A DNA stretch of 37,682 nt from an uncultured Clostridia bacterium (GTDB lineage Bacteria; Bacillota; Clostridia; UBA1381). Below, one piece after another: positions 1,555 to 29,302 of the stretch (position 1 is the stretch's first letter; every line of letters begins with the position of its first letter). A model generated the notes under the pieces. The model saw only the letters and a program-made list of their open reading frames with translations. It did not search any database and was not told where the DNA came from. The translations under genes and the position numbers were made by a program. The DNA lies in contig CALXRY010000163.1 of the NCBI GenBank assembly GCA_944390955.1, forward strand, positions 1 to 37,682, given 5' to 3'.

Positions 1555-2010
1555 TTATGCCAATTCTTCCTTCAAAAGCTTTCTCGCCTTTGACAGTCTG
1601 CTTTTGACCGTTCCGGAGGGTATCTTAAGGATATTCCCTATTTCCTCGGTCGAATAGCCTTCTATATAATGAAGAACTACAACTACCCTATAGCGCTTGT
1701 CGAGCTTATGTATTGCACTGTAAAGCTCGCTGTAGGACTCATCGCTGCCCGCTTGCTCGGGCGTATCGTCAAGCGCTATGATCTTTTTCTTTTTATTTAA
1801 TATACGGTAGCACTCGTTTATCAGTATCCGTATAAGCCATGTCCTGAAATATTCTTCATTCTTAAGGCTTCCGACCGAGGCATAGGCCTTCGTGACAGCC
1901 TCCTGAACTGCGTCCTCGCAGTCCCAGTCATGCGTCAGAATTGACTTTGATACCCTATACATAGTCTGCTCCGACGCCAGAACCTGCTCCGTAAAACTTT
2001 TCTTGTCCAT
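1555..2010 (-). CDS. ECF-type RNA polymerase sigma factor (SigV-like)
   Basis: A 151-residue sigma-70 family protein with only regions 2 and 4, as in extracytoplasmic-function sigma factors. Region 2 (about 10-75) has the core-binding and -10-recognition segment DCEDAVQEAVTKAYASVGSLKN followed by FRTWLIRILINECYRIL. Region 4 (about 95-150) has the helix-turn-helix YSTEEIGNILKIPSGTVKSRLSKARKLL that contacts the -35 element. It is followed directly by its probable anti-sigma gene, so the pair forms a stress-responsive module. A candidate autoregulatory promoter lies at 2064-2091. Confidence 0.9.
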   Translation of the reverse strand: MDKKSFTEQVLASEQTMYRVSKSILTHDWDCEDAVQEAVTKAYASVGSLKNEEYFRTWLIRILINECYRILNKKKKIIALDDTPEQAGSDESYSELYSAIHKLDKRYRVVVVLHYIEGYSTEEIGNILKIPSGTVKSRLSKARKLLKEELA

Positions 2011-2063
2011 AATATTCTCTTATGCCTTAGCATATGTCCTTTCCTTGTAGCCGCTACACTTAT

Positions 2064-2091
2064 TAGATAATACAGCACGGCATACGGTTCA
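2064..2091 (-). promoter_or_regulatory. Candidate ECF-sigma autoregulatory promoter
   Basis: On the minus strand a GTGAACC-type -35 (TGAACC, 2086-2091) is separated by 16 nt from TATCTAA (2063-2069). TGAAC-type -35 elements are typical of ECF sigma targets, and ECF operons usually transcribe themselves. The -10 part does not match a strict consensus, so this is an inference. Confidence 0.45.
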
Positions 2092-2120
2092 CGTCTTTTT
2101 ATATTTTTTTGATTTTTTAT

Positions 2121-2149
2121 TTGATTTATGATTTGGCTTGGTGTATAAT
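2121..2149 (+). promoter_or_regulatory. SigA-type promoter of tmcAL
   Basis: TTGATT (2121-2126), a 17-nt spacer and a perfect TATAAT (2144-2149) lie 34 nt upstream of the tmcAL ATG, divergent from the ECF sigma operon. Confidence 0.7.
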
Positions 2150-2183
2150 AAAATAAATAAACTTGTAACGGAGGCGTCATTAT

Positions 2184-3314
2184 ATGCAAATAACAGCAGT
2201 GATCGCAGAATATAACCCGTTCCATTTCGGACACCGGTACCAGCTTAAACAGATAAAGAAGCACTCTGACGCAGCAGTTGTAATAATGAGCGGGCCGTTC
2301 GTCCAGCGCGGAGAAGCGGCGATAACCGATAAATGGTCAAGAGCGCATGCGGCGCTGCTGAACGGAGCCGACCTCGTGCTTGAGCTGCCCGTTATATTTG
2401 CGCTTGCCTCCGCCCGTGAATTTGCCTCGGGTGCGGTCAGTTTGCTCGACTGCACAGGATCTATAGATAAGCTCTGCTTCGGCACGGAATCCGGCGACGC
2501 CGAAGCTCTTATAAATGCGGCGGAAATAATAGAAAACGAGCCTCCGGAGATCTCGAAAAAAATAAAGGCGCTCGTTTCCGAGGGCATGTCCTATCCAGCG
2601 GCAAGGGAGCTTGCGTTTTCCGAGCTTGTCCCCGCCGGCTTATTATCCTCGCCGAACAACATTCTTGCAATAGAATATATTCGCGCGCTCATGCGCATAA
2701 ACAGCACCATAACCCCCATGCCGATACTTCGCGAGGGCTCGGGCTATCATGACATAAATGTCAATAAATTTGCCAGCGCATCGGGTATACGCTCGCGTAT
2801 TTTTTCCGGGCAGGATATTTCGGAGCTGCTTCCATGTCCCGATTTTGAGGTATACAGCACATCAGCACTCGACACTGCCGTTACGGCGTGTCTGAGGACT
2901 ATGGCTACCGAGCGCCTTGCCGAAATAAACGGCGTCTCCGAGGGGCTTGAAAACAGGATACTCCGCGCCGCCCTCATGCATTCCTCCATAGACGATATTG
3001 CCGCCGCCGTAAAGACAAAGCGGTACACGCTTACAAGGATAAAAAGGATATTATTATCGTCACTCCTTGGGATAACTCATGAGCTTGCATCTATGAAGCC
3101 GGGATATATACGTGTTCTCGGCATGAACAGCACCGGAGCAGAGGTGCTGAGGCTCATGAAGCAGAATATAACGGTGATAACAAAGGCCGCCGACTACAAA
3201 GCAAACGATCCCGTTTTCGCCGCCGATATCCGCGCTCAAAATATCTTCTCGCTCTGTGGGGACACTAAAAAGGGCAATGAGGATCTTACCACATCGCCCG
3301 TTATTATCAAATAA
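2184..3314 (+). CDS. tmcAL: tRNA(Met) cytidine acetate ligase TmcAL (YlbM)
   Basis: A 376-residue protein that acetylates the wobble cytidine (ac4C34) of elongator tRNA-Met using acetate and ATP. The N-terminal nucleotidyltransferase-like fold is clear: AVIAEYNPFHFGHRYQ (residues 5-20) contains the HxGH-type nucleotide-binding motif, followed by the family block VIMSGPFVQRGEAAITDKWSRA and the ADLVLELP block. The length is close to the 380-420 usual for the family. GGAGG (2170-2174) lies 9 nt before the ATG. The gene converges with yfcE, and the 3' ends overlap by 8 nt. It may be slightly short at the C-terminus, but all conserved N-terminal blocks are present. Confidence 0.93.
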   Translation: MQITAVIAEYNPFHFGHRYQLKQIKKHSDAAVVIMSGPFVQRGEAAITDKWSRAHAALLNGADLVLELPVIFALASAREFASGAVSLLDCTGSIDKLCFGTESGDAEALINAAEIIENEPPEISKKIKALVSEGMSYPAARELAFSELVPAGLLSSPNNILAIEYIRALMRINSTITPMPILREGSGYHDINVNKFASASGIRSRIFSGQDISELLPCPDFEVYSTSALDTAVTACLRTMATERLAEINGVSEGLENRILRAALMHSSIDDIAAAVKTKRYTLTRIKRILLSSLLGITHELASMKPGYIRVLGMNSTGAEVLRLMKQNITVITKAADYKANDPVFAADIRAQNIFSLCGDTKKGNEDLTTSPVIIK

Positions 3315-22167: not shown

Positions 22168-22344
22168 TTATTTTTTATGACTATGGCACACTCCCGACAT
22201 GGAGCAGCCGCTGCAGCCGCAGCCGCATGAGGATCCGCCCTTCTTTTTGCTTTTTATCATGCGAATGATTATTCCCGCCACAGCAACGGCAAGGACCAAT
22301 GCAATGATTATGGTAGATATATTTTCAGAAAGCCATGCGATCAT
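22168..22344 (-). CDS. FeoB-associated Cys-rich membrane protein
   Basis: A 58-residue peptide with one N-terminal membrane helix (about 8-28, ISTIIIALVLAVAVAGIII), a basic stretch (KSKKKGG) and a Cys-rich tail (SCGCGCSGCSM, then CHSHKK) with potential metal ligands. This layout is that of the small proteins encoded next to feoB in Clostridia; they are thought to assist or regulate Fe(II) transport by FeoB, although the mechanism is unproven. The ATG at 22344 is chosen, because AAGGAG lies 8 nt before it; an upstream GTG would overlap the Shine-Dalgarno. It lies 38 nt after feoB and is the last gene of the feo operon. Confidence 0.85.
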   Translation of the reverse strand: MIAWLSENISTIIIALVLAVAVAGIIIRMIKSKKKGGSSCGCGCSGCSMSGVCHSHKK

Positions 22345-22382
22345 CAAATCCACTCCTTCCCGTCAGAATAAATACTTTAAGT

Positions 22383-24785
22383 TTATGCCTTTACTTTTAC
22401 ATTTGCGGTAAACCTGCTCGACTCCTTATACGGCTTGAACAGCATATAAAGGATAAATGCAACTATTGCAGCAGCAAATATTACACCTATCACGTTTCCG
22501 TTTCCGGTAAACAGCATACCGAACTGATATACAACAAGCGACATTGCATAGGCAAATATGCATTGATAGCCTATTGCAAACCACGTCCATTTTGCGTTAT
22601 TCATCTCACGCTTGATAGCGCCGATAGCGGCAAAGCACGGAGCGCAGAGTAGATTGAATATCATGAACGAATATGCCGAAAGGCGCGTCATACCCTCGAA
22701 ATCGAGTACGCCGAACACTGCAACGACCTCTTCCTTTGCAACAAGCCCCATGATCGTAGCGATAGTTGCCCTGATATTATCGAAGCCGAGCGGTGCAAAT
22801 ATCCAGCTTATCGCGCCGCCTATCATACCGAGCACGCTGTTCTCAAGATCGACATCCGGGTTGAATCCGAACGAGCCGTCCGTCATGCCGAAGCTCGAGC
22901 CTGCCCATATTATGATAGATGACAGAAGGATGACCGTACCGGCTCTCTTTATAAACGAGCTTCCTCTCTCCCACATGCTGCGCAGAACATTGCCGACCGT
23001 CGGCAGATGGTATGCCGGCAGCTCCATAACGAACGGAGCGGGATCGCCCGCGAACATTTTTGTTTTCTTGAGCATGATACCTGAAATTATTATAGCCGCA
23101 ACTCCGATAAAATAAGCGCTCGGAGCGACCCACCATGCGCCGCCGAACAGCGCCGATGCGATAAGAGCAATGATCGGGATCTTTGCTCCGCACGGGATAA
23201 AGGTGGTAGTCATAATAGTCATTTTTCTGTCGCGGTCATTTTCTATCGTTCTTGAGGCCATAACGCCCGGAACTCCGCAGCCTGTACCTATGAGCATAGG
23301 TATGAACGACTTTCCGGAAAGTCCAAACTTGCGGAAAATCCTGTCCATAACGAACGCTATACGCGCCATATATCCGCACGCCTCAAGGAATGCGAGGAAT
23401 ATGAACAGCACGAGCATCTGTGGAACGAAGCCGAGAACTGCGCCTACACCGCCTACGATACCGTCAAGGATAAGACCCTTGAGCCAGTCGGCGCAGTTTA
23501 TTGCGTCAAGTCCGCTTTCAACGATCACAGGGATACCGGGGACCCACACTCCGAATTCTGACGTGTCCGGAGCTTCCTCCATCGCTGGATCAATGATACC
23601 CGAAAGATCAAAGCCGGCCTCGGCAAGCGCATCACCATATGTACCTACAGCCTCGTCAAAGCCGCCGAAGTCTTCCTCCTCTATGGCTCCGAGAATATCC
23701 TCCGCGCCTACTACATCAGCCGTTGCGGCACCCTCAACGATACCCGTAAGCTCGTCTGTCCAGATGTTCTCCGAAGCATATTCCGTTATTGCTTCTTCAT
23801 ACTGGCTGCCGCCTATACCGAATAAATGCCAGCCGTCTCCGAAAAGTCCGTCGTTTGTCCAGTCGGTCACCCATGTACCTACGGTCGTTACCGACACATA
23901 ATAAACGAGGAACATAACGACAGCAAAAATCGGGAGCGCAAGGAAACGGTTCGTAACGATCCTGTCTATCTTATCCGACGTCGTGAGCTTTCCGGCGCTC
24001 TTCTTTTTGCAGCAGACCTTCATGAGCTCTGCTATGTAAACGTATCTGTCATTTGTTATGATGCTCTCTGCATCGTCGTCAAGCTCCTTCTCGGCAGCAA
24101 GGATATCCTTCTCGATATGGTCAAGCGTGCTCTTTGGTATATTCAGCTGCTCTATCACCTTTTCGTCACGCTCAAAGATCTTTATCGCATACCAGCGCTG
24201 CTGTTCCTCGGGCATGTTATGGAGCACGGCTTCTTCAATGTGCGCTATTGCATGCTCAACGGCGCCGGTAAAGGTATGCATCGGGATAGTCTTCGTTCCC
24301 TGCGCAGCCTTTATCGCGGACTCTGCAGCCTCCATGATCCCCGTGCCCTTAAGAGCGGATATCTCCACTACCTTGCAGCCAAGCCTCTTTGACAGCTCAT
24401 TGATATTTATCCTGTCGCCGTTCTTTCTTACTATATCCATCATGTTTACGGCAATTACTACAGGTATTCCGAGCTCAGTAAGCTGTGTTGTTAGATATAG
24501 GTTCCTTTCAAGATTCGTACCGTCGACAATATTCAAAATAGCATCGGGGCGCTCGCTTATAAGATAATTTCTCGCAACTACCTCCTCAAGCGTATACGGA
24601 GAAAGTGAGTATATACCAGGAAGGTCGGTTATCGTAACGCCCTCATGTTTCTTTAGCCTACCCTCTTTTTTCTCGACCGTAACGCCCGGCCAGTTTCCCA
24701 CAAATTGATTTGACCCGGTGAGCGCGTTAAATAAAGTAGTCTTACCGCTGTTCGGATTACCCGCAAGGGCAATTCTTATATTCAT
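22383..24785 (-). CDS. feoB: Ferrous iron transporter FeoB (with acidic external insertion)
   Basis: An 800-residue Fe(II) transporter. The N-terminal G domain (1-165) has G1 GNPNSGKTT (9-17), G2 around NWPGVTVEKKEG, G3 DLPG (54-57) and G4 NMMD (114-117). A helical linker domain (about 170-270) leads to the membrane domain with Gate motifs: LEACGYMARIAFVMDR (468-482), TGCGVPGVMASRT (501-513), and the second gate after PCGAKIPI (531-538) and later LCAPCFAAIGAIKRE. Between the first membrane helix (about 281-300) and GGVGAVLGFVPQ (445-456) there is a loop about 80 residues longer than usual, with residues 327-412 holding 24 Asp/Glu and no Lys or Arg. The gene is 43 nt after feoA. Confidence 0.96.
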   Translation of the reverse strand: MNIRIALAGNPNSGKTTLFNALTGSNQFVGNWPGVTVEKKEGRLKKHEGVTITDLPGIYSLSPYTLEEVVARNYLISERPDAILNIVDGTNLERNLYLTTQLTELGIPVVIAVNMMDIVRKNGDRININELSKRLGCKVVEISALKGTGIMEAAESAIKAAQGTKTIPMHTFTGAVEHAIAHIEEAVLHNMPEEQQRWYAIKIFERDEKVIEQLNIPKSTLDHIEKDILAAEKELDDDAESIITNDRYVYIAELMKVCCKKKSAGKLTTSDKIDRIVTNRFLALPIFAVVMFLVYYVSVTTVGTWVTDWTNDGLFGDGWHLFGIGGSQYEEAITEYASENIWTDELTGIVEGAATADVVGAEDILGAIEEEDFGGFDEAVGTYGDALAEAGFDLSGIIDPAMEEAPDTSEFGVWVPGIPVIVESGLDAINCADWLKGLILDGIVGGVGAVLGFVPQMLVLFIFLAFLEACGYMARIAFVMDRIFRKFGLSGKSFIPMLIGTGCGVPGVMASRTIENDRDRKMTIMTTTFIPCGAKIPIIALIASALFGGAWWVAPSAYFIGVAAIIISGIMLKKTKMFAGDPAPFVMELPAYHLPTVGNVLRSMWERGSSFIKRAGTVILLSSIIIWAGSSFGMTDGSFGFNPDVDLENSVLGMIGGAISWIFAPLGFDNIRATIATIMGLVAKEEVVAVFGVLDFEGMTRLSAYSFMIFNLLCAPCFAAIGAIKREMNNAKWTWFAIGYQCIFAYAMSLVVYQFGMLFTGNGNVIGVIFAAAIVAFILYMLFKPYKESSRFTANVKVKA

Positions 24786-24828: not shown

Positions 24829-25050
24829 TTATTCCACTTCGATCATATCCGCATCGGCCTTTCGCAGCGAAAGCTCGTAGCCTCTTACGGTTACCTCGAC
24901 CGGATCGCCGAGCGGCGCAACCTTGCGGACATATACGCTGACCCCCTTGGTTATCCCCATGTCCATGATCCTGCGCTTCACAGCACCCTCTCCGTGAAGT
25001 TTGACCACTTTGACCGTGTCACCTATCTTCACCTGTCTTAGTGTTTTCAT
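24829..25050 (-). CDS. feoA: FeoA protein (second copy)
   Basis: A 73-residue SH3-like beta-barrel protein of the FeoA family, recognised by LRQVKIGDTVKVVKLHGEG, RRIMDMGITKGVSV and VTVRGYELSLRKADADMIEV. FeoA is a cytoplasmic partner needed for full FeoB activity. AAGGAGG lies 7 nt before the ATG. It is the second of two adjacent feoA genes and is less divergent from the typical FeoA than the first. Confidence 0.93.
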   Translation of the reverse strand: MKTLRQVKIGDTVKVVKLHGEGAVKRRIMDMGITKGVSVYVRKVAPLGDPVEVTVRGYELSLRKADADMIEVE

Positions 25051-25074: not shown

Positions 25075-25287
25075 TCAAACCATGATCTTCTGGGCCATTT
25101 CCCGGCTTATCGCCACTCTGGCATCTTTAACGTTTACAATAACGTTCCCGCCGATCATGCTCACTATGGTGACGTTCCCTCCGACCACAAAGCCCATATC
25201 CTCAAGATGCTTTTTCACGTCCGGATTTCCGCCTACCCTCTTTATTATATTGTCACTTCCGACATCTGCAAGCGTCAACGGCATCAT
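25075..25287 (-). CDS. feoA: FeoA protein (first copy)
   Basis: A 70-residue FeoA family protein: PLTLADVGSDNIIKRVGG, KKHLEDMGFVVGGNVTIVS and VIVNVKDARVAISREMAQKI are the typical blocks. It heads the feoA-feoA-feoB operon, 24 nt upstream of the second copy. GGAGG lies 6 nt before the ATG; an ATG directly after it is also possible. Tandem, dissimilar FeoA proteins are common in Clostridia and may form a hetero-oligomer with FeoB; that is an inference here. Its promoter carries the GGTTAG operator array. Confidence 0.92.
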   Translation of the reverse strand: MMPLTLADVGSDNIIKRVGGNPDVKKHLEDMGFVVGGNVTIVSMIGGNVIVNVKDARVAISREMAQKIMV

Positions 25288-25316
25288 GCTTTACCTCCAT
25301 TCTTTTTTAACAGTAT

Positions 25317-25373
25317 CTAACCGTATATTATGGTTAGTATTTTCTAACCTCTGCAGGTTAGTTTATCATAACC
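25317..25373 (-). promoter_or_regulatory. Operator array at the feoA promoter (GGTTAG/CTAACC half-sites)
   Basis: Five 6-nt half-sites alternate in orientation: 25317-25322, 25332-25337, 25344-25349, 25356-25361 and 25368-25373 (the last is ATAACC on the plus strand, one mismatch). The rightmost four are each separated by exactly 6 nt, so their period is 12 nt and every neighbouring pair is a palindrome GGTTAG-N6-CTAACC or its inverse; the leftmost is 9 nt away. The array covers the -10 and the transcription start region. The same palindrome is found upstream of the HMA gene (29254-29269). The half-site resembles the TTAGGTTAG half of DtxR/IdeR boxes, but the spacing differs, so the regulator is unidentified. 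Confidence 0.75.
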
Positions 25374-25388
25374 AAAACATTTTGTCAA
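25360..25388 (-). promoter_or_regulatory. SigA-type promoter of the feoA-feoA-feoB operon
   Basis: TTGACA (25383-25388), a 17-nt spacer and TAAACT (25360-25365). The -10 lies within the operator array, so a bound regulator would block RNA polymerase. Confidence 0.75.
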
Positions 25389-25541: not shown

Positions 25542-27629
25542 TTAAGTGTTCCTTAACGAAGGATCCCGTTCCAGCATCGGACGCATACTGTTTGCGCTTA
25601 TAAGCATCGTCGAGCTGTTATGCAGCAGCGACGAGACCGATGGAGTTATCACTCCGCAAAGCCCGAGCAATATGAGCGCTGAATTAAAAGCCATTATGAC
25701 CGCATAATTTCTTCTTATGCGTCTGAACAGCCTTTCGCTCAACATCCTAAGCATAGCCAAATCACGCAGATCTCCCGACATCAGGGTTATGTCCGCCACC
25801 TCTCTTGCCAGATCGGACGAATCCTTCATTGCAACAGAAACATCGCTAACAGCGAGTGCAGGCGAATCATTTATGCCGTCACCCACCATTATGACCGTTC
25901 TTCCCTGCTTCTTAAACGCGTCTATTATCTGCGCCTTGTCTTCGGGAAGCACCTGCGACCTGAAGTCATCTATGCCGAGCATTTCTGCCGTTCTCCGGGC
26001 TGCGGCGGCGTGGTCACCGGTCAGCATTATTACGTCTTTTACTCCCTTGGCTTTGAGCATCCTCACCGCCTCGGCCGCCTCCGCACGCGGCGGATCGCTT
26101 ATGCATATAACTCCGGCAAGCTGCTTTCCTATCGCAAGATAGATAGCCGAAAGCCCTTCGCATTCACTTGCTATGAGCTCCTTTTCAGCATCAGAGATCA
26201 TGACGCCCTCATCCTCCGCGACGAAGTGCTCGCTTCCTATTATCGTGCGTTCTCCGTGCAGCTGCGTGGCTATGCCGTGAGCCACAATATATTCGACCTC
26301 GGCATGTTCCTCCTCATGCTTGAGGTCCTTTTCCTGAGCTGCACGCACTATCGCCTTTGCAACACTGTGAGGGAAATGTTCCTCAAGGCACGCAGATATC
26401 TTAAGCACCTCTTCGGCTGTATATCCGCCGAACGGCAGTATCTTTTCAACAACAGGGCAGGCGTTTGTAAGAGTTCCGGTTTTATCAAATACTATAGTAT
26501 CCGCATGGGCGAAGCTCTCAAGGTGTTTTCCGCCCTTGACGAGGAATCCCATACCAGAAGCCTCCCGCATTGCGCTTATCACGCTTATCGGAGTGGACAG
26601 CTTTATTGCACAGGAATAGTCTACCATAAGTACAGAAAACGCCTTTGCTACATTCCTCGTAATAAGATAAACAAGCACGGACAGCCCAAGCGTATACGGA
26701 ACAAAGCTATCCGCCAGCCTCTCCGCACGAGTCTGCACCCCTGCCTTAAGGCTTTCACCGCTCTCTATCATATTCACAATATTCGATATCTTTGTATTCC
26801 CCGCCGCCGAGCTTACACGGACTACGACAGACCCCTCTTCTATTACAGTTCCCGCATACACCGTCGCTCCGGCTAATTTTCTTGCCGCCTGCGGCTCTCC
26901 TGTCATCGACGACTCATTGACCATCGCCTCTCCGGAAACAACAGTTCCGTCCACGGCTATCATGCTCCCGTCGCGAAATACAAGATGATCATCTGTTTTC
27001 ACCTCGCTCATCGGTATAAGTTTTTCGGTTCCGTCCTGAACGCTCCATACCTTATCTATCTTGAGTGCAAGACTTTCTGACAGCGCATCCTTTGTGCGCT
27101 TTCGTGTATATTCCTCAAGCAGCTCGGATATTTTAAGCAAAAATATAATAGAATTAACCTCGCTGTGCATTCCTCGCGCCAGCGCCGCTCCGACTGCCGC
27201 TCCATCAAGCAAACTTACATCCAATCTGAAAGAAAGCAGGCTGCTCACGGCCCTTCTGATATACGGAAACACTTTGATATATGACATTATTATCCGCACG
27301 GGCATAGGCATAAACCGCCTTAATATAAATCTTCTAAGAAGCATTTTCATAAGACGCTTTTTGAATTTGCCTTCATAATCGTTCGAAACCACGCGCGGCT
27401 TCACGTCACATGCACGTATCCCTGAAACTGTATCAAGCAGCTCCTTTCTGTACCCAGGACGGTATGTTATAAATATCCCACCGTTTACACTCGTCACTTT
27501 GACACTCATGACATAACTTTTTGCAAGTATGTATTCCTCAATGGATTTTTCGCGGTCACGCCCGAAATATCCTCCGCCGCACCTCAGGCGTAGCCTTCCT
27601 CGAGTATCGTGTATGATCTTAAATTTCAT
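25542..27629 (-). CDS. P1B-type metal ATPase with SCA membrane motif (FezB-like)
   Basis: A 695-residue P-type ATPase. Core motifs are complete: SMTGEP (241-246), the phosphorylation site DKTGTLT (382-388), TGD (537-539) and MVGDGINDSPAL (581-592). Unlike Cu, Zn or Cd pumps it has no N-terminal CxxC; instead it begins with R10, R12, R14 and R16 (TRGRLRLRCG). The CPx motif is replaced by Ser339-Cys340-Ala341 in DYSCAIKLSTP, and the C-terminal helix has LLHNSSTMLISANSMRPML. These features fit the P1B-6 group, which includes FezB of ferrosome clusters. The usual His-Pro motif reads His421-Ser422. The start overlaps the upstream small gene by 11 nt. Substrate is probably iron, from context; a Zn or Mn pump cannot be excluded. 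Confidence 0.85.
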   Translation of the reverse strand: MKFKIIHDTRGRLRLRCGGGYFGRDREKSIEEYILAKSYVMSVKVTSVNGGIFITYRPGYRKELLDTVSGIRACDVKPRVVSNDYEGKFKKRLMKMLLRRFILRRFMPMPVRIIMSYIKVFPYIRRAVSSLLSFRLDVSLLDGAAVGAALARGMHSEVNSIIFLLKISELLEEYTRKRTKDALSESLALKIDKVWSVQDGTEKLIPMSEVKTDDHLVFRDGSMIAVDGTVVSGEAMVNESSMTGEPQAARKLAGATVYAGTVIEEGSVVVRVSSAAGNTKISNIVNMIESGESLKAGVQTRAERLADSFVPYTLGLSVLVYLITRNVAKAFSVLMVDYSCAIKLSTPISVISAMREASGMGFLVKGGKHLESFAHADTIVFDKTGTLTNACPVVEKILPFGGYTAEEVLKISACLEEHFPHSVAKAIVRAAQEKDLKHEEEHAEVEYIVAHGIATQLHGERTIIGSEHFVAEDEGVMISDAEKELIASECEGLSAIYLAIGKQLAGVICISDPPRAEAAEAVRMLKAKGVKDVIMLTGDHAAAARRTAEMLGIDDFRSQVLPEDKAQIIDAFKKQGRTVIMVGDGINDSPALAVSDVSVAMKDSSDLAREVADITLMSGDLRDLAMLRMLSERLFRRIRRNYAVIMAFNSALILLGLCGVITPSVSSLLHNSSTMLISANSMRPMLERDPSLRNT

Positions 27630-27870
27630 TATTTACTTCATCTTCTTCGTCAAGCTTGGATTTTGCCTCGTAACACATATCCTCAGCTTCTTCCTTCATA
27701 TTCTGGAATGTTTCCAAAGCATCCTGCTGCAGCTTCATTCCCTTGGCTATTCCCATTACGCAGAGCTTACGCGTTTTTTCGCTCTTAATGATCCTCTTTC
27801 CTGCGATCACCGCAGCCGCTCCTGCGGCAAAGCACAGCAGCCTTCCGTCCTTAAGGTTATTTAACTTCAT
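27619..27870 (-). CDS. Small DUF6110-like protein (possible FezA equivalent)
   Basis: An 83-residue protein: short N-terminus, a hydrophobic segment rich in small residues (about 10-24, LLCFAAGAAAVIAGK, with Gly and Ala spaced as in helix-packing motifs), a basic stretch, and an acidic amphipathic C-terminal helix with two or three Cys. It looks like the DUF6110 family that precedes P1B ATPases in Clostridia, as I recall it. In ferrosome operons a small hydrophobic protein, FezA, precedes FezB; the position and the 11-nt overlap with the ATPase gene here fit this. The start at 27870 is chosen, as GGAGAG lies 7 nt before it; the upstream in-frame TTG has no Shine-Dalgarno. Confidence 0.65.
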   Translation of the reverse strand: MKLNNLKDGRLLCFAAGAAAVIAGKRIIKSEKTRKLCVMGIAKGMKLQQDALETFQNMKEEAEDMCYEAKSKLDEEDEVNNEI

Positions 27871-27952
27871 AATGAATCTCTCCAATCTGTATTTTTATAT
27901 TTTAAGGCACAAATAAAGCTAAAATCAAGCTTCTAAGCCTTATTTACTATTT

Positions 27953-28732
27953 TCATCCGAGCGCTACGTCAAGTATCATCATAACCGAAAAACCGCCGGC
28001 AAACATCAAGGTCCCTATATTTGAGTGTCTGCCCTGCGACATCTCGGGAATGAGCTCCTCAACAACCACATATATCATCGCTCCGGCAGCAAAACTCAGA
28101 AAATACGGAAGCGCCGGTATTACAAACGACGCCGCGGCGATAGTAAGCAGAGCTCCGACAGGCTCTATGATCCCCGATAAAACTCCGTACAAAAATGACC
28201 GCCCTCGGCTCACCCCCTCCGACTTTAACGGCATCGATATAATAGCGCCTTCGGGAAAGTTCTGGATGGCAATTCCGAGCGAAAGAGCCAACGCTCCCGC
28301 GATCGTCACTGTCGTATTCCCCGCAAGATACCCTGCGTACACAACTCCAACCGCCATACCCTCCGGCAAATTGTGGAGAGCGACAGCCATCACAAGCATA
28401 GTCGTTTTTTTCATTTTGCTCTTCGGACCTTCTGCCTGCGCACTATTCATGTGCAAATGCGGAACGGCGTGATCGAGCAGCAGCAAAAACAAAATCCCTA
28501 TCAGGAAACCGACCACCGCCGGAATAAACGACAGCCTGCCCATAGCCGAAGCATAGTCCATCGCCGGGATCAGCAGGCTCCATACCGAGGCAGCTGTCAT
28601 TACACCGGCAGCAAAACCAGTAAGCGCACGCTGAAGCATTTCATTCATTCTGTCCCTCATGAACAGAACGCACGCCGATCCGAGAGACGTACCTAAAAAC
28701 GGTATAAATATTCCCTGCAAAACATCAATCAT
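27953..28732 (-). CDS. ZIP family metal transporter (GufA-like)
   Basis: A 259-residue membrane protein with about eight helices. ZIP signatures are clear: HNLPEGMAVGV (metal-binding helix 4) and NFPEGAIISMPLKSEG (helix 5), and a variable cytoplasmic loop (HAVPHLHMNSAQAEGPKSKMKK) with His residues between helices 3 and 4. ZIP proteins import divalent metals (Zn, Fe, Mn) into the cytoplasm. It lies between the HMA protein and the DUF6110-like gene in the same direction, 81 nt and 82 nt away, so it is probably part of the same transcript and could supply iron for the ATPase; the metal is not readable from the sequence. Confidence 0.92.
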   Translation of the reverse strand: MIDVLQGIFIPFLGTSLGSACVLFMRDRMNEMLQRALTGFAAGVMTAASVWSLLIPAMDYASAMGRLSFIPAVVGFLIGILFLLLLDHAVPHLHMNSAQAEGPKSKMKKTTMLVMAVALHNLPEGMAVGVVYAGYLAGNTTVTIAGALALSLGIAIQNFPEGAIISMPLKSEGVSRGRSFLYGVLSGIIEPVGALLTIAAASFVIPALPYFLSFAAGAMIYVVVEELIPEMSQGRHSNIGTLMFAGGFSVMMILDVALG

Positions 28733-28813
28733 TTAATTGATCCCTTTCATAAATACAAGTTAAACATAAATCCATCGGTATACGTCGGCTCCCCAAAGCC
28801 GCAGCAAGTCCGT

Positions 28814-29197
28814 TCACACTTCATTTTGTTCTTCAAACGAGACGACCCTATATCCTGCGGCGATTATCCTTCCCCTCAGCACTTCCTCGGGGATCAGGAT
28901 TTTCATCCTTACCGTCGCAAGACCGCTGCCCAGATCGACATCCGCCCACACGCCGTTCTCGGAATTAAGAGCATTTTCAACTCTTTCCTTGCAGCGTCCG
29001 CACGTCATACCGCTCACTCCTATTTTTACGGTATACAGATAATGCGCCGGATCCTTATCGTCCACCTTTATCTTTTTTTCATCGTCTCCGCCCGCTCCGC
29101 AGCAGCCGGACGAGAGCTTCCTTGCATAGCTTTTAATCGCAATCACAGCAATTATAACAAGTGCAACTACAAGTATTACAGTTCCCACACTATCCAT
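28814..29197 (-). CDS. Membrane-anchored heavy-metal-associated (HMA) domain protein
   Basis: A 127-residue protein with one N-terminal membrane helix (about 5-23, GTVILVVALVIIAVIAIK), a basic and Cys-containing linker (SYARKLSSGCCGAGGD), an acidic/Lys spacer and a C-terminal HMA domain (about 57-120) with the metal-binding GMTCGRC loop. The N-terminal part looks like the FeoB-associated Cys-rich peptide encoded at 22168-22344. The HMA domain resembles those of metal chaperones or ATPase N-termini, so it may supply the metal-binding domain that the downstream ATPase lacks. It is the first gene of the ATPase unit; AAGGAGG lies 8 nt before the ATG. A shared operator lies in its promoter. Confidence 0.85.
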   Translation of the reverse strand: MDSVGTVILVVALVIIAVIAIKSYARKLSSGCCGAGGDDEKKIKVDDKDPAHYLYTVKIGVSGMTCGRCKERVENALNSENGVWADVDLGSGLATVRMKILIPEEVLRGRIIAAGYRVVSFEEQNEV

Positions 29198-29253
29198 GAT
29201 CTATGCCTCCTTTATAAACTCATCACTGGGTTTGTTATTTAATACCCAGCATG

Positions 29254-29302
29254 GTTAGTATTTTCTAACTATAAATATATCATTTTTATGTGAGCTTGTC
29301 AA
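29254..29302 (-). promoter_or_regulatory. Promoter and operator of the HMA-ZIP-ATPase unit
   Basis: TTGACA (29297-29302), a 17-nt spacer and TATATT (29274-29279) on the minus strand, with the palindrome GTTAG-N6-CTAAC at 29254-29269, just downstream of the -10. The palindrome and the N6 spacer (TATTTT on the plus strand) are identical to the central palindrome of the feoA operator array, with shared flanking bases giving a 17-nt identity. Confidence 0.75.

Follow-up and report, generated by a model that had tools for sequence, protein, structure and literature searches.

A tandem GGTTAG-N6-CTAACC operator at a clostridial feoA promoter, probably read by a short DtxR-family iron repressor

The window analyzed here, the whole 37,682-nucleotide stretch of contig CALXRY010000163.1 from an uncultured Clostridia bacterium, carries a ferrous iron uptake operon on its minus strand. 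The gene feoA1 (25075..25287, 70 aa, ATG at 25287; PF04023 FeoA, E=6.2e-16) is followed by feoA2 (24829..25050, 73 aa; PF04023 FeoA, E=6.5e-22) and by feoB (22383..24785; PF02421, PF07664 and PF07670), whose product, an 800-aa ferrous iron transporter, has a long acidic insertion at approximately residues 300–430, separating the cytosolic domain from the first Gate domain. After feoB comes a small Cys-rich ORF (22168..22353, minus strand, 61 aa, CGCGCSGCSMSGVC) that, by the look of its sequence rather than by a profile, we take to resemble the FeoB-associated Cys-rich proteins. The feoA promoter (25360..25388, minus strand) matches the consensus at 10 of 12 positions, with a perfect –35 element (TTGACA, 25388-25383), a 17-bp spacer and the –10 element TAAACT (25365-25360).

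The initial annotation had described five half-sites of alternating orientation at this place, four of them at 6-nt gaps, lying on the –10 and start region of feoA. Both descriptions hold: the half-sites are CTAACC (25317-25322), GGTTAG (25332-25337), CTAACC (25344-25349), GGTTAG (25356-25361) and, with one mismatch, ATAACC (25368-25373), alternating in orientation at gaps of 9, 6, 6 and 6 nt, and the position of TTGACA-17-TAAACT places the array across the –10 element and start of a gene that PF04023 identifies as feoA. Operator palindrome 1 (GGTTAGTATTTTCTAACC, 25332..25349) is an exact GGTTAG-N6-CTAACC just 3' of the inferred feoA transcription start, and is kept at feoA of relatives. Operator palindrome 2 (GGTTAGTTTATCATAACC, 25356..25373; one mismatch) contains the –10 element and part of the promoter spacer; its centre is 24 bp from that of palindrome 1, within the 23–26 bp range, which pairs favour alongside a second, longer one (see below). 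The leftmost CTAACC is the good half of a degenerate third palindrome (TTTTAACAGTATCTAACC, 25305..25322) which, with three mismatches, is at chance level when taken alone; a third half-site or palindrome is also found downstream in the feoA promoters of several relatives. Palindromes with at most one mismatch were expected 0.04 times in 37.7 kb by Markov-1 simulation of the window, vs. three seen, starting at 25332, 25356 and 29253.

The last of these, the second operator of the window (GGTTAGTATTTTCTAACT, 29253..29270; one mismatch), stands directly 3' of a TTGACA-17-TATATT promoter on the minus strand. The first gene behind it encodes an HMA-domain protein (28814..29197; PF00403, E=1.9e-8), and the same minus-strand gene run holds a ZIP-family metal transporter (27953..28732; PF02535, E=4.2e-21) and a 695-aa P-type metal ATPase (25542..27629; PF00122 and PF00702); an 88-aa ORF is also included in this run (25542-29197). 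In one relative (G015) an HMA-like gene and a ZIP gene each have an exact site (L048 and L049, respectively). The whole genome contains four exact palindromes and none of the pattern read backwards; the four precede feoA, ahpC with a thioredoxin-reductase-like gene trxB (contig C93), a DUF2325 gene (contig C215), where another palindrome lies at 36 bp, and a DUF3793-flavodoxin locus. At the feoA, HMA, ahpC and DUF2325 promoters the palindrome lies at or directly after a recognizable –10 element. Cells short of iron are known to rely on ferrous uptake, on flavodoxin as a stand-in for ferredoxin and on peroxide defence. Sites with at most two mismatches numbered 22 genome-wide vs. 26 for backward controls, and hence were not interpreted as a group. 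One site of this grade (GGTTAAATATTGCTAACT, two mismatches, L005:1342-1359 on contig C93) stands opposite the ahpC operator, about 230 bp before genes for a SufC-like ATPase and a SufB/D-like protein (1591-3229); these may be Fe-S assembly genes belonging to the same regulon.

Lack of the palindrome upstream of feoA in related genomes had been named as the finding that would refute the proposal, and it is not what these genomes show: a protein search independently yielded 28 feoA promoters, and an N6 palindrome with at most two mismatches is present in 20 of them; the same –35/–10 layout can be seen in relatives. Other spacers gave at most six matches each in these 28 promoters, except N10 with 12. 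The N10 form, GTTAG-N10-CTAAC, often taken by the site over the –10 element (feoA promoters L123, L125, L126, L128 and L130), amounts to two N6 modules overlapping at a 4-bp offset and brings to mind the DtxR box with its offset of 5 bp. Between the two feoA palindromes, the linker measures 6 nt in the window and in five close relatives, and 3, 5 or 9 nt in others. Since the linker varies among relatives while N6 stays, the N6 palindrome is the conserved unit: the natural unit of the array is an 18-bp N6 palindrome, not the 12-nt period that had been proposed, which describes the window and its five close relatives and fails beyond them. The same variation weakens the suggestion of overlapping inside-out palindromes. 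Comparative evidence thus confirms the array as real and conserved and, as far as sequence can tell, as functional.

Exact sites are present in 32 of the 101 related genomes. Their neighbours are most commonly feoA or feoB, followed by DUF2325 and DUF3793-flavodoxin genes and then by pflB (three), enolase (two), ahpC, HMA, ZIP and ABC transporter genes, names that were recognized from translated sequences apart from the profile-searched ones. Several short DtxR-family genes also adjoin exact sites, some of them divergent from feo. The pflB-like (pyruvate formate-lyase) genes with exact palindromes, in three relatives (L046:3933, L051:158 and L055:3089), give the impression that the regulon also governs a low-iron substitute for the ferredoxin-dependent pyruvate oxidoreductase. 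Exact palindromes before enolase in two relatives and phosphoglycerate mutase in one (L057:2944, L082:2829 and L073:3154) mark unexpected glycolytic targets. DUF2325 and DUF3793 proteins beside flavodoxin recur in the regulon across Clostridia (L340, L341, L342, L047, L052 and L060), and both families look like iron-limitation proteins. As a held-out test, a blind scan of DNA only was made for two GTTAG-N6-CTAAC palindromes in tandem in 245 genomes across the class. Tandem palindromes occurred in 43 genomes (backward control, 0), and 26 of the 30 inspected loci hold feo, the DtxR type described next, or DUF2325/DUF3793-flavodoxin genes.

The one complete protein of this DtxR type in the genome (L013:1309-1686, contig C59, 125 aa) has the Fe_dep_repress domain (PF01325, E=6.7e-11) and the metal-binding and dimerization domain (PF02742, E=8e-14), after which it ends, so that the C-terminal SH3-like domain is absent. 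Its ligand set is Asn-Cys-Glu-His at positions 10, 102, 105 and 106; the full Met-Cys-Glu-His set is found in 35 regulators of relatives. At the edge of contig C68 (L014:12-143) a fragment resembles the DtxR dimerization domain, minus its Glu-His ligands, and may be what the assembly left of a truncated second DtxR-like gene. Used as query against 85,000 species, the regulator led to 80 loci from Clostridia, 584 kb in total. The closest is that of Candidatus Ornithomonoglobus intestinigallinarum (regulator 94% identical), a match that hints at this genus for the window, and others come from MAGs or isolates of Lachnospiraceae, Oscillospiraceae, Ruminococcus, Ructibacterium, Pseudoruminococcus and Christensenella. 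These loci contain 38 sites with at most one mismatch at spacer 6, and zero at spacers 2–5, 7–9 and 11–13 or in the backward control; 25 of the 34 feo-bearing loci have a site. Locus L226 of Ructibacterium gallinarum, for example, combines a DtxR gene and feo with a site.

The DtxR-family proteins of related genomes fall into several clades, in a tree of few columns and many open forks. Sites with at most one mismatch stand within approximately 260 bp upstream of 15 of the 67 DtxR genes with the (Met/Asn)10-Cys102-Glu105-His106 set, vs. none of the remaining 34 DtxR-family genes, among them MntR-like genes that encode Glu at 102. A regulator gene of the DtxR or Fur type with the site in its own promoter, which the initial annotation had suggested looking for, was thus found among DtxR genes of relatives; the C59 gene itself lacks such a promoter site, which counts against the DtxR reading (the genome is approximately 89% complete), and zero sites were found in 93 kb around 30 FUR genes. 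In many relatives the site beside the DtxR gene also serves a divergent feo, so autoregulation is not separable there. The base next to TTAG covaries with residue 43 of the regulator, being C in 25 of 48 half-sites with Arg43 vs. 7 of 50 with Val43 (p=8e-5, a value that ignores phylogeny, related genomes not being independent, and that rests on assigning genomes by their found regulators). In IdeR, Gln43 contacts the first base of the pentamer, the same position as the covarying base (PMC8464063).

Pairs of palindromes keep preferred distances. Of those less than 60 bp apart, 26 of 28 are at 23–26 or 33–36 bp centre to centre, and in 46 held-out pairs from other orders the modes were again 24–26 and 33–35 bp, with two pairs at 45–46 and six at 29–30; class-wide, most pairs are 33–36 bp apart. 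The two modes differ by about one helical turn. The phase at 10.5 bp beats all of 100,000 uniform draws; when each genome contributes a single pair, 26 of 100,000 draws match it. The fit does not set 10.5 apart from 10–11 bp. Such phased spacing favours dimers that would make contact, or otherwise signal to each other, in a single relative orientation; the cooperative binding proposed in the initial annotation thereby gains an indication, at the level of inference.

The sites themselves, where they lie on promoters, how far they are conserved and how they go with this DtxR clade are all observed; on this basis we consider it very probable that the array is the tandem operator of a short (~125 aa) DtxR-family iron repressor, which agrees with the metalloregulator, probably of the DtxR family, that had been suspected at the outset. 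The predicted identity of the regulator follows from association, covariation and geometry, and the iron assignment from the target genes and Cys102; with Asn rather than Met at ligand 10, Mn(II) sensing is a less likely alternative for this particular protein. We infer binding, metal, repression and cooperativity in the following form. Each GGTTAG-N6-CTAACC palindrome would take one dimer, with one recognition helix on TTAG and the other on CTAA in consecutive major grooves, much as a single IdeR dimer occupies half of the 19-bp box. On the feoA promoter, one dimer would cover the –10 element and a second would sit just 3' of the start, 24 bp off, and the Fe(II)-loaded repressor would block RNA polymerase; when iron falls the repressor would leave, and feoA1-feoA2-feoB would be made. 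The same repressor may also control the flavodoxin/DUF3793/DUF2325 genes, ahpC-trxB and the HMA/ZIP/P-type ATPase operon.

We put forward more tentatively, as a joint reading with a real chance of being right but short of an even one, that an SH3-less DtxR branch across Clostridia swapped the interlocked two-dimer box for separate, phased single-dimer palindromes at distances of ~24–26, 34 and 45 bp, with dimers cooperating without an SH3 or FeoA domain, by direct contact or DNA shape, and with residue 43 setting the inner base preference. A further, speculative idea is that this absent domain is provided in trans by the FeoA proteins that the operon encodes as separate genes.

Two other assignments of the regulator have to be weighed. 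The sensor might be an Mn(II)-responsive, MntR-like member of the DtxR family, as MntR is the closest solved relative by sequence and Asn occurs at ligand 10 in some MntR proteins; this seems unlikely to us, because Cys102 is as in IdeR, the targets (feo, flavodoxin, ahpC and pflB) speak against an Mn(II) sensor, and the Glu102-bearing MntR clade is without sites. We give slightly less credit still to an operator recognized by a different group of iron-responsive proteins (Fur/PerR or Rrf2/IscR-type), with the DtxR genes as fellow members of the regulon. The genome does encode one FUR-family protein, and in one account of Clostridioides difficile iron genes are under Fur (PMC6311696). Against this, on the Fur side, the Fur box TGATAATNATTATCA has three window matches with at most three mismatches vs. 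2.6 by chance, none of them at feoA; the 30 FUR genes have no sites nearby; and both the site geometry and the way the base follows residue 43 favour DtxR.

The array itself could also be understood differently. In the window, as in several close relatives, both spacers equal 6, as they would if the 12-nt array were one polymer-like site on which dimers settle on whichever half-sites adjoin, the inside-out CTAACC-N6-GGTTAG pair among them; the linker of 3, 5, 6 or 9 against a constant inner spacer of 6 makes this very unlikely, as does the absence of any 6-nt inside-out pair at 33–36 bp, the commonest class-wide pair distance. That the repeats form an RNA hairpin or terminator instead of a protein operator is scarcely credible: the two terminator-like hairpins at the array are on the plus strand, opposite feoA, and are a consequence of the palindromes, part of the array covers the –10 element, and an N6 kept with free spacer sequence and placed over different promoters fits an operator.

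The DtxR-family reading offers a testable iron regulon, together with its operator and likely regulator, in a large set of Clostridia from gut and rumen, bacteria for which Fur control is the usual assumption. Our literature search returned nothing direct on a DtxR iron regulon in Clostridia or on DUF2325 or DUF3793 in iron regulation; subscription papers and regulon databases were outside that search, and prior description is possible. The occurrence of half-sites in other species, and their role, is an open question in the IdeR literature (PMC10317159), on which the present genomes bear, since half-site-type operators are the rule here. The phased pairs, moreover, are a natural experiment on DtxR dimer cooperation.

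Among known systems, the 19-bp IdeR/DtxR box is the natural comparison. The initial annotation had held that the spacing does not fit that box; one dimer of Saccharopolyspora IdeR, however, binds repeats 1 and 3 of TTAGGTTAGSCTAACCTAA, that is, TTAGG-N4-CCTAA, which equals TTAG-N6-CTAA (PMC8464063). The clostridial sites share this one-dimer register, the position over the –10 element or start, and the association with iron genes, and their regulators share the winged helix-turn-helix, Cys102-Glu105-His106 and, in most relatives, equivalents of Ser37/Pro39 (Thr/Ala in the protein of this genome). Unlike the box, they have no interlocked second dimer 5 bp away, including at feoA: of 123 strong sites, 5 have a second core overlapping the first with a shift of 4 or 5 bp, and 3 have one shifted by 5 bp. 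Searches for canonical interlocked DtxR boxes gave only rare weak matches. The inner G/C of TTAGG-N4-CCTAA is absent from the clostridial sites, which keep outer GG/CC instead, and residue 43 of the clostridial proteins is Val or Arg, not Gln, in proteins with no SH3-like domain.

The sites of Streptococcus mutans SloR likewise have a 6-6-6 arrangement and are bound cooperatively (PMC12096823), which further removes the supposed misfit of spacing. SloR too is of the DtxR family, with several dimers on hexamer-N6-hexamer palindromes in tandem over a –10/–35 promoter, but its hexamers are AATTAA, 4 bp apart, where here the hexamer is GGTTAG and the palindromes are mostly 24–26 or 33–36 bp apart centre to centre; and SloR senses Mn and makes dimer-dimer contacts through a C-terminal FeoA-type domain that the 125-aa clostridial protein lacks. 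Bacillus subtilis MntR, also a short DtxR-family protein without an SH3 domain, is the best solved-structure match (E=1.3e-19); it differs in its Asp8 and Glu99 ligands, which are Asn and Cys in the protein of this genome, and the MntR-like paralogues of these genomes have no sites. In a 2015 comparative-genomics study, archaeal DtxR-type iron regulators named FetR reportedly had palindromic sites before feoAB, a likeness in family and in feoAB palindromes, but in Archaea. Rather than the undescribed site type once suspected, the array is best read as a variant of the DtxR-type operator, on which SH3-less, Cys102-bearing Fe(II) repressors would occupy helically phased single-dimer sites.
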